Of a DNA stretch of 64,000 nt, positions 7,191-19,789 are shown piece after piece (the first letter of the stretch is position 1; each line of letters starts with the position of its first letter). The stretch is from Rutstroemia sp. NJR-2017a BVV2 (lineage: Eukaryota; Ascomycota; Leotiomycetes; Helotiales; Rutstroemiaceae): NCBI GenBank assembly GCA_002946415.1, contig NJPS01000039.1, forward strand, positions 372,001-436,000, in the 5' to 3' direction. The translations under genes were made by a program, and so were the position numbers. Under the pieces are notes generated by a model. It searched no databases. It had not been told where the DNA came from and was given only the letters and a program-made list of their open reading frames with translations.

Positions 7191-7286
7191 GGGCCTAACC
7201 GGGACTTGAACCCGGGACCTGTCACAGTTCTCTAACGAGAGGGTTATTCACCCGAAGCGACAATCATACGACTAGACCATTAGGCC
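7191..7286 (-). tRNA. tRNA-Pro(CGG) with 24-nt canonical intron
   Basis: Read on the minus strand, the acceptor arms GGCCTAA and TTAGGCC pair perfectly. The D arm holds the A box TGGTCTAGTCG, and the T arm is CCGGG-TTCAAGT-CCCGG. The anticodon stem GTCGC/GTGAC closes a seven-base loop TTCGGGT with anticodon CGG (Pro). A 24-nt insert at 7227-7250 sits at the canonical position one base 3' of the anticodon, and its ACCC can pair with the loop GGGT as expected for the tRNA splicing endonuclease. Removing it leaves 72 nt. A run of five T on the minus strand (7181-7185) is a likely Pol III terminator. Confidence 0.93.
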
Positions 7287-19019: not shown

Positions 19020-19027
19020 AAAAAAAA
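19020..19027 (-). terminator. Pol III T-run terminator of tRNA-Ser
   Basis: Eight consecutive T on the minus strand, ten bases after the tRNA-Ser 3' end. This supports Pol III transcription of the intron-bearing gene. Confidence 0.8.
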
Positions 19028-19036
19028 TTGTTCACT

Positions 19037-19173
19037 CGACGTGAGCAGGATTTGAACCTACGCTGGAAGACATTGTTAGTAATTGATTTCATGATGATGA
19101 AGGGATATTTAGCTTACCCTCCGAAGAGAATTGATTTCTAGTCAATCGCTTTAGACCACTCAGCCATCACGCC
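19037..19173 (-). tRNA. tRNA-Ser(AGA) interrupted by a 55-nt GT-AG intron in the variable arm
   Basis: On the minus strand the acceptor arms GGCGTGA/TCACGTC pair (one G-U). The D arm carries the A box TGGCTGAGTGG, the anticodon arm is ATTGA-CTAGAAA-TCAAT (anticodon AGA), the variable arm is CTC-TTCG-GAG, and the T arm is GTAGG-TTCAAAT-CCTGC. Between the variable arm and the T arm lies an insert at 19063-19117 that starts GTAAGC, contains TTACTAAC and ends CTTCCAG. Without it the tRNA is 82 nt, the usual tRNA-Ser length. There is no insert at the canonical 37/38 position. The insert has every mark of a fungal spliceosomal intron and the same length as mRNA introns in this window. A T8 terminator follows. 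Alternative: a broken tRNA gene, but all paired arms and both boxes are intact. Confidence 0.88.
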
Positions 19174-19789
19174 TATTGAGTTTGTTGTTGAAGGCTGCAG
19201 CTTATTTGAATTTATAATACTTCTTAAATTTACCCCGCATCATCTAGCTATACTTCGTACACAGCATAATCGAATTATCAAAATAATGCAGAAATCATTA
19301 TCCGGAAGTATGGAAATGTGAAAAAGATTCCATGGAAGTTTGATTTCATTATGGATATTCGAAATTTCGAGTACTTGAATTAGCACAATTTTCTAGCTTA
19401 CAGTTGGAACTCGATTAGCAAGGCCTCACCACGAGCCCCTTTGCATAGAAACAAAATCAACCAATCAGTATTTGCCACCACCTGAGGTGCAATACTTCAA
19501 CCACCAGGAGAGGACAGCTCACACAAAATCCTAGTGTTTACTTCGAAAAGAGATGACAAGTCTCCGAGAATTATCCTCCTCGATTTACCCCATTGCGCCC
19601 CGCATAAATTATGTTTCCCCCTTGTACTCTTTCGGCTGCCCGTGAGACTCACTCCTTAGTTCCATGGACACTCCGCGTCGAGGAATGTCCGCGCAGTCAC
19701 TTTGTATAAAGACGAAGCACAACATCTGAATTCTATCAAATTCTCAGATCAATCAAGCTCTCTCGATCAAACACCCTCCGTTAAACACG
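19174..19789. other. Intergenic; promoter region of the FAD monooxygenase
   Basis: No ORF of note. A TATA-like GTATAAAGA occurs at about 19703-19711, some 85 bp before the start codon at 19790. Confidence 0.5.

Follow-up and report, generated by a model that had tools for sequence, protein, structure and literature searches.

The stretch of DNA analysed here, referred to as the window, comprises 64,000 nucleotides (G000:C33:372001-436000) of the 43.4 Mb genome of Rutstroemia sp. NJR-2017a BVV2 (Helotiales, Leotiomycetes), which is assembled in 79 contigs. An exonuclease V gene lying in the window matches a protein of this fungus at 100%. A single tRNA match was detected in the window by cmscan, both at the gathering score and at E up to 1, on the minus strand from 19173 to 19037, and this match shows a long insertion ahead of the T arm; ARAGORN run without its intron option reported no tRNA in the window. 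The following features were assigned to this gene, its immediate surroundings and a control gene:

19037..19173, minus strand: tRNA-Ser(AGA) gene including the insert (cmscan RF00005, 51.4 bits, E 4e-08; ARAGORN Ser(aga) once spliced)
19118..19173, minus strand: exon 1, 56 nt, from the 5' strand of the acceptor stem to the end of the variable arm
19063..19117, minus strand: putative spliceosomal-type intron, 55 nt, between the variable arm and position 48
19037..19062, minus strand: exon 2, 26 nt, comprising position 48, the T arm, the 3' strand of the acceptor stem and G73
19112..19117, minus strand: 5' splice site GTAAGC
19075..19082, minus strand: branch site TTACTAAC, which contains TACTAAC, with the predicted branch A at 19076
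19063..19065, minus strand: 3' splice site CAG (insert end CTTCCAG)
19156..19166, minus strand: A box TGGCTGAGTGG (pattern match)
19048..19058, minus strand: B box GGTTCAAATCC, 11/11 (pattern match)
19137..19139, minus strand: anticodon AGA (ARAGORN)
19020..19027, minus strand: T8 run, presumed Pol III terminator, starting 9 nt past the 3' end
19211..19219, minus strand: TATA-like element TATTATAAA, 38-46 nt upstream of the tRNA 5' end (pattern; weak evidence)
7191..7286, minus strand: control tRNA-Pro(CGG) with an ordinary 24-nt intron at 37/38

The original prediction had read this locus as a tRNA-Ser(AGA) gene interrupted before the T arm by 55 nt of spliceosomal type, and its anatomy was borne out. 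The gene divides into exon, insert and exon of 56, 55 and 26 nt, direct reading found GTAAGC, TTACTAAC and CTTCCAG in the insert as described, both the intact A and B boxes and the T8 run were recovered by pattern, and tRNA-Pro(CGG), proposed as a comparison, indeed has a canonical intron. Removal of the insert leaves the expected standard tRNA-Ser of 82 nt, which is called Ser(AGA) by ARAGORN. The branch A lies 14 nt from the insert end, itself counted, and the insert boundary can slide by 1 nt, with one of the two settings giving GT-AG. In the minimum-energy folds of the spliced Ser forms, the anticodon arm does not adopt the cloverleaf shape. A group I or group II intron core was sought for the window gene alone, and only RF00005 matches were returned in the window by Rfam (gathering score and E up to 1); considered beside this, all twelve inserts described below are just 48-65 nt long. 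Intron mobility was considered and rejected; none of the twelve inserts has a strong copy elsewhere in the window.

As a reference for mRNA introns, two protein genes of the window, which their peptides suggest to be mannosyltransferase-like and GH95-like, were searched at five junctions for GT..AG introns that keep the reading frame. This joining of reading frames was used instead of a codon-usage intron finder, which was too weak on the window. Three of the five junctions have a single solution (47, 45 and 51 nt), a fourth allows a choice of four 5' sites (lengths of 38-59 nt, with GTGAGT at 50 nt), and the remaining one has no in-frame GT..AG solution. The four solved introns carry CTAAY 10-12 nt from their end. 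The insert had been said to match the protein-gene introns of the window in length: its design is the same, but at 55 nt it is slightly longer than the introns of 45, 47 and 51 nt. Taken as a group, the tRNA inserts (48-65 nt) agree with a U2-type length as judged from this small reference set (45, 47, 51 and 38-59 nt).

A genome-wide search located Ser(AGA) at exactly three places, each bearing the insert at the same site and matching over the full 137 nt, so that, as regards the question raised with the original prediction of whether all copies carry it, every copy found does. The two other genes both lie on contig C43 (L002 and L003; G000:C43:1254735-1254870 and 1256270-1256405), in opposite directions and about 1.4 kb apart, and are mutually identical across tRNA and insert. 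The similarity between them spans about 150 nt, so that little beyond the gene and its intron appears to have been copied or converted. Their identity with the window gene is 88%, with 79/82 exon positions the same, compared to 43/56 alignment columns in the insert. The splice signals are nevertheless conserved among the paralogous inserts, all of which keep GTAAGC, CTAAY and CTTCCAG, an outcome that does not speak against a real intron. Between the window gene and the C43 copies, one acceptor pair is altered on both sides (C3-G70 to T3-A70), and T50-G64 in the T stem becomes T50-A64.

Four more tRNA families with a similar insert turn this single oddity into a pattern. At least twelve genes in the genome, belonging to five tRNA families, have mRNA-type inserts at five non-canonical positions, which were numbered by us from the exon lengths:

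Ser(AGA), three genes (window copy, L002, L003): insert at 47/48
Arg(TCT), two genes (L059, L060): insert at 53/54
Pro(TGG), three genes (L086, L094, L153): insert at 10/11, plus a 37/38 intron
Thr(AGT), three genes (L115, L139, L140): insert at 23/24, plus a 37/38 intron
Ile(TAT), one gene (L149): insert at 13/14, plus a 37/38 intron

None of these inserts lies at 37/38, the location of a canonical tRNA intron; the second intron of the Pro, Thr and Ile genes, which does, is an ordinary one of 11-34 nt. The insert is present in every copy found (Ser 3/3, Arg 2/2, Pro 3/3, Thr 3/3, Ile 1/1). For example, the spliced Thr query matches just three loci, all of them interrupted both at 24 and at 37/38, and no uninterrupted copy of the five families occurs among the 63 RF00005 matches, including the intronless Ser(AGA) that would have spoken against the spliceosomal interpretation. 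The observation made at Ser(AGA) is confirmed as real and is wider than first described. ARAGORN assigns the correct tRNA to all twelve spliced forms; when the unspliced genes are submitted, four are missed, five receive a wrong isotype and the three Ser genes receive the right anticodon with a misplaced intron. Likeness of the inserts across families amounts to nothing beyond short weak matches between Ser and one Thr insert, and gapped patterns used to look for relatives gave no matches in viral contigs (Ser, Thr and Pro) or in prokaryote genome contigs (Thr).

The tRNA genes were read from the 63 RF00005 matches, B-box pattern sites and further short stretches of the genome, and the inventory is incomplete. 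Three of the searches drawn on gave 206, 113 and 145 matches, with sites taken from among the matches listed; those of the 113- and 145-match searches were read in part, on contigs up to C36 mainly the ones with a T run. In another B-box search, 62 of 70 sites were read, and three of the other eight share C74 coordinates with C25 sites that were read, while 20 of the 23 sites of a T-arm pattern were covered. Several matches fall at identical coordinates on G000:C25 and G000:C74, which suggests that the assembly contains some sequence twice. This incomplete inventory includes no tRNA-Tyr(GTA), Leu(TAA) or Gly(TCC). A query without matches carries little weight, since a Phe query gave zero matches and the T-arm pattern then yielded four Phe genes. 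These four Phe genes and two Ile(AAT) genes have canonical introns only, and the remaining ARAGORN-parsed tRNA genes among the fetched sequence have a canonical intron or none, except for an odd tandem pair. This pair, L049 (G000:C34:1185243-1185388 and 1185557-1185693), consists of two tandem tRNA-like sequences whose inserts of 65-74 nt follow the anticodon loop (CTCATAG, CTCGAAG) and can be cut as GT..AG, but have no CTRAY near the end. In addition, two near-identical tRNA-like sequences (L130, C50:5560-5800, and L137, C55:82055-82295) have a long insert and a perfect T stem and resemble each other even in the downstream sequence; they are possibly a tRNA-derived repeat.

All twelve inserts begin with GT, contain a CTAAY whose A lies 11-19 nt from the end, end with AG and measure 48-65 nt. 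The chance of encountering the full signal was estimated from random 48-65 nt stretches of the window (GT, CTRAY 8-25 nt from the end, and AG), which gave 1.5e-4 at a fixed place and 5.7e-4 with four shifts. Within the boundary shifts that the tRNA permits, none of the twelve inserts has a second solution with the full signal.

At the level of sequence, the exons evidently evolve under tRNA constraint. Every acceptor and T-stem pair forms across the twelve genes (144/144), and pairs changed on both sides occur once in Ser, four times in Arg and once in Thr. The spliced forms of the Pro genes L086 and L094 are identical (83/83, the 37/38 intron counted), compared to 30/62 for their inserts and 31/60 for their upstream DNA; similarly, the Arg pair shows 34/66 in the insert and 31/57 upstream. 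Within-family identity of the inserts is higher, at 70-77%, in Ser and in Thr (42-44 of 57-60), the identical C43 pair aside, and these inserts have drifted less than their upstream DNA. The inserts therefore diverge much more than the tRNA, and in two families they stand at background, splice signals aside. One Arg(TCT) gene, L060, keeps all seven acceptor pairs, three of them as G-T, with four both-side changes relative to L059, and may be a diverging isodecoder.

It is probable (at roughly 85%) that the window gene is a functional nuclear tRNA gene whose insert is a U2-type spliceosomal intron, and that this intron belongs to a set in which Pol III pre-tRNAs would be cut by the spliceosome and three families would need the tRNA endonuclease as well; the spliceosomal reading originally given to Ser(AGA) is supported by the sequence comparisons. 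For removal of the inserts, the spliceosome appears to be the best explanation by a wide margin. According to the proposed mechanism, Pol III would transcribe the pre-tRNA from the internal A and B boxes and end at the T run, the spliceosome would recognise GT, CTAAY and AG and join the exons via a lariat, and the second intron of Pro, Thr and Ile, the one at 37/38, would be taken out by the tRNA endonuclease and ligase.

The promoter and terminator elements bear on which polymerase is involved. All twelve genes have a B box matching 10-11 of 11 positions, ten of the twelve match the A-box pattern, and a stretch of at least four T begins 4-16 nt past the 3' end in each of the 11 genes that can be read (the Ile L149 sequence is too short), so that spliced structure, boxes and T run are together those predicted for a functional Pol III tRNA gene. 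The insert leaves both boxes intact in Ser and Thr. In both Arg genes, the insert splits the B box after G53 and the 3' AG of the intron restores AGTTCGAGTCC, 10/11 of the consensus. The Pro insert splits the A box after G10, where TAGTTCAGTGG results from the intron end TAG in L094 and L153, and CAGTTCAGTGG from the intron end CAG in L086; the A-box pattern matches at the intron end in two of the three Pro genes, with no match in the third or in Ile. The intron 3' AG replaces the lost purine-G in Arg and Pro, and the promoter is therefore probably kept. TATA-like upstream elements, found at 8/12 insert-bearing genes and 18/28 other tRNA loci, neither support nor oppose Pol III. It is conceivable, although improbable, that the genes are instead transcribed by Pol II, spliced co-transcriptionally like an mRNA and then trimmed to the tRNA. 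Such a route would suit the known habit of spliceosomes, which normally process Pol II transcripts (PMC8527467, available part), and the internal A box of Pro and Ile, which the intron shifts about 50 nt from the 5' end. It is opposed by the T runs of all 11 readable genes, by the well-preserved B boxes, in Arg through the 3' AG itself, and by the same layout, insert aside, in most other tRNA genes read from the genome. As the Pol II route shares the spliceosome step with the best explanation, the odds of the two overlap.

A different remover of the inserts has also been considered, namely the tRNA splicing endonuclease, as for the ectopic tRNA introns of archaea and Cyanidioschyzon merolae, in which case GT, CTAAY and AG would be coincidental. 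Non-canonical introns (for instance at 53/54 in archaea), several per tRNA, are known there, as in nucleomorphs and a red alga, without a role for the spliceosome (PMC4090602, available part). However, the full GT-CTAAY-AG signal is present in 12/12 inserts and in 0/50 canonical introns of the same genome, even with shifts of 5 allowed; among these 50 (a count that leaves out L049, L115, L139, L140 and Ser-AGA), a GT..AG cut is possible in two and CTRAY is held by five. Endonuclease removal of the inserts is thus quite unlikely, more so than transcription by Pol II. A strict bulge-helix-bulge was found at none of the twelve insert junctions, but this test does not discriminate, because none of the 50 canonical introns reaches 9/10 pairs either.

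The position of the inserts was further assessed by a scan blind to splice signals, in which each 35-75 nt stretch was deleted in turn (965-1825 products per gene) and the products were scored on tRNA pairs and conserved bases only, the canonical intron of the Pro, Thr and Ile genes having been removed beforehand. In 8/12 genes (two Arg, three Pro and three Thr) no other product scores as high as the GT..AG form, which leads by 0.5-1.5 points; in Ile it shares the top score with one other product. In the three Ser genes, two products score 0.5 above the GT..AG form and nine equal it, an ambiguity that arises because the variable arm leaves slack. A control scan of 50 canonical genes, which used the same score and allowed deletions to differ from the known intron by at most 6 nt in length, placed the best deletion at 33-41 in 49 and found a GT..AG form in one. 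For Ser(AGA) only, an ordinary long 37/38 intron of 48-50 nt could be envisaged instead, which is how ARAGORN parses the unspliced genes, as i(37,48), i(39,50) and i(40,50). In the window gene, the corresponding product folds at -23.6 kcal/mol with an anticodon hairpin, compared to -23.0 kcal/mol and no such hairpin for the GT..AG product. This candidate was rejected in spite of the window-copy fold being 0.6 kcal/mol better, because the variable arm would be lost and the 37/38 form of L002 has no anticodon hairpin (and a weaker fold, -19.3 versus -21.6). The parse discards a strand of the anticodon stem together with the CTC-TTCG-GAG variable arm, identical in the three Ser genes, and retains sequence that differs among them; it also accounts for none of the four other families, and is very improbable.

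That the interrupted genes are pseudogenes or assembly artefacts is just as hard to credit: insertions in eukaryotic D or T arms, which mostly affect a single gene among many synonymous ones, are as a rule ascribed to pseudogenes (PMC4090602, available part), but for five families that decoding requires no copies other than the interrupted ones were found, every acceptor and T-stem pair is kept, with compensatory changes, and the genes are spread over several contigs with differing flanks.

With respect to known systems, spliceosomal introns in Pol III RNAs have a precedent in U6, although the U6 gene of Rutstroemia itself has no intron, its single match over the cut-off (G000:C23:42069-42174) being full length and contiguous. 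Going by the title of a 1990 paper, Frendewey et al. reportedly found within the U6 intron of Schizosaccharomyces pombe a sequence that matches the tRNA-type B box. The spliceosome is reported to remove the intron of fission yeast U6, so that S. pombe U6 resembles the present genes in that an essential Pol III RNA is interrupted by an mRNA-type intron (PMC10484740, available part). It differs in that U6 is a component of the spliceosome and its intron is ascribed to reverse splicing (PMC10484740, available part), whereas the hosts in Rutstroemia are tRNAs, with five families and five positions. Similarly, the nuclear rDNA introns of lichen ascomycetes are spliceosomal and short (57 bp in one example), interrupt a structured RNA that does not come from Pol II, and are also removed once placed in yeast rDNA (PMC8527467, available part). 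Their host is a Pol I rRNA in which the tRNA endonuclease is not involved, compared to a tRNA presumably made by Pol III in Rutstroemia. The ectopic introns of archaea, nucleomorphs and C. merolae are alike in lying in D and T arms, in archaea including 53/54, and in occurring several per gene, but those of archaea and C. merolae rely on bulge-helix-bulge and those of the Guillardia nucleomorph measure 3-24 nt (PMC4090602, available part). Canonical nuclear tRNA introns, cut at 37/38 by endonuclease and ligase, are found elsewhere in the Rutstroemia genome and also within the interrupted Pro, Thr and Ile genes themselves; unlike the twelve inserts, they have a fixed position and lack the full splice signal (0/50). 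A word search of the available part of the Yoshihisa 2014 review found no mention of the spliceosome (PMC4090602), and the available parts of PMC11782384 and PMC9849252 contain nothing on spliceosomal-type tRNA introns. No report of spliceosomal introns in nuclear tRNA genes was found in the open-licence literature, among the matches listed.

In teaching, the splicing of nuclear tRNAs and that of mRNAs are kept apart as two pathways, each with its own substrates. Interrupted genes of the kind described here can escape standard tRNA finders or be misread by them. According to the tRNAscan-SE 2.0 paper, a eukaryotic tRNA gene is limited to one intron (PMC8450103, available part). It is likely, with a little less assurance than for the inserts being spliceosomal introns, that the spliceosome is an obligatory tRNA-processing machine for five essential families in Rutstroemia, that Pro, Thr and Ile pre-tRNAs are spliced by two unrelated machines, and that some of the introns sit inside Pol III promoter boxes where the 3' splice-site AG doubles as promoter sequence. 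If true, essential tRNA genes that need the spliceosome would break the separation between tRNA and mRNA splicing, and translation capacity would be tied to spliceosome activity. These genes may then offer a natural system in which to ask whether Pol III transcripts are substrates of spliceosomes, which of two machines is the first to splice one small RNA, and how introns invade structured RNAs that bear their own promoters.
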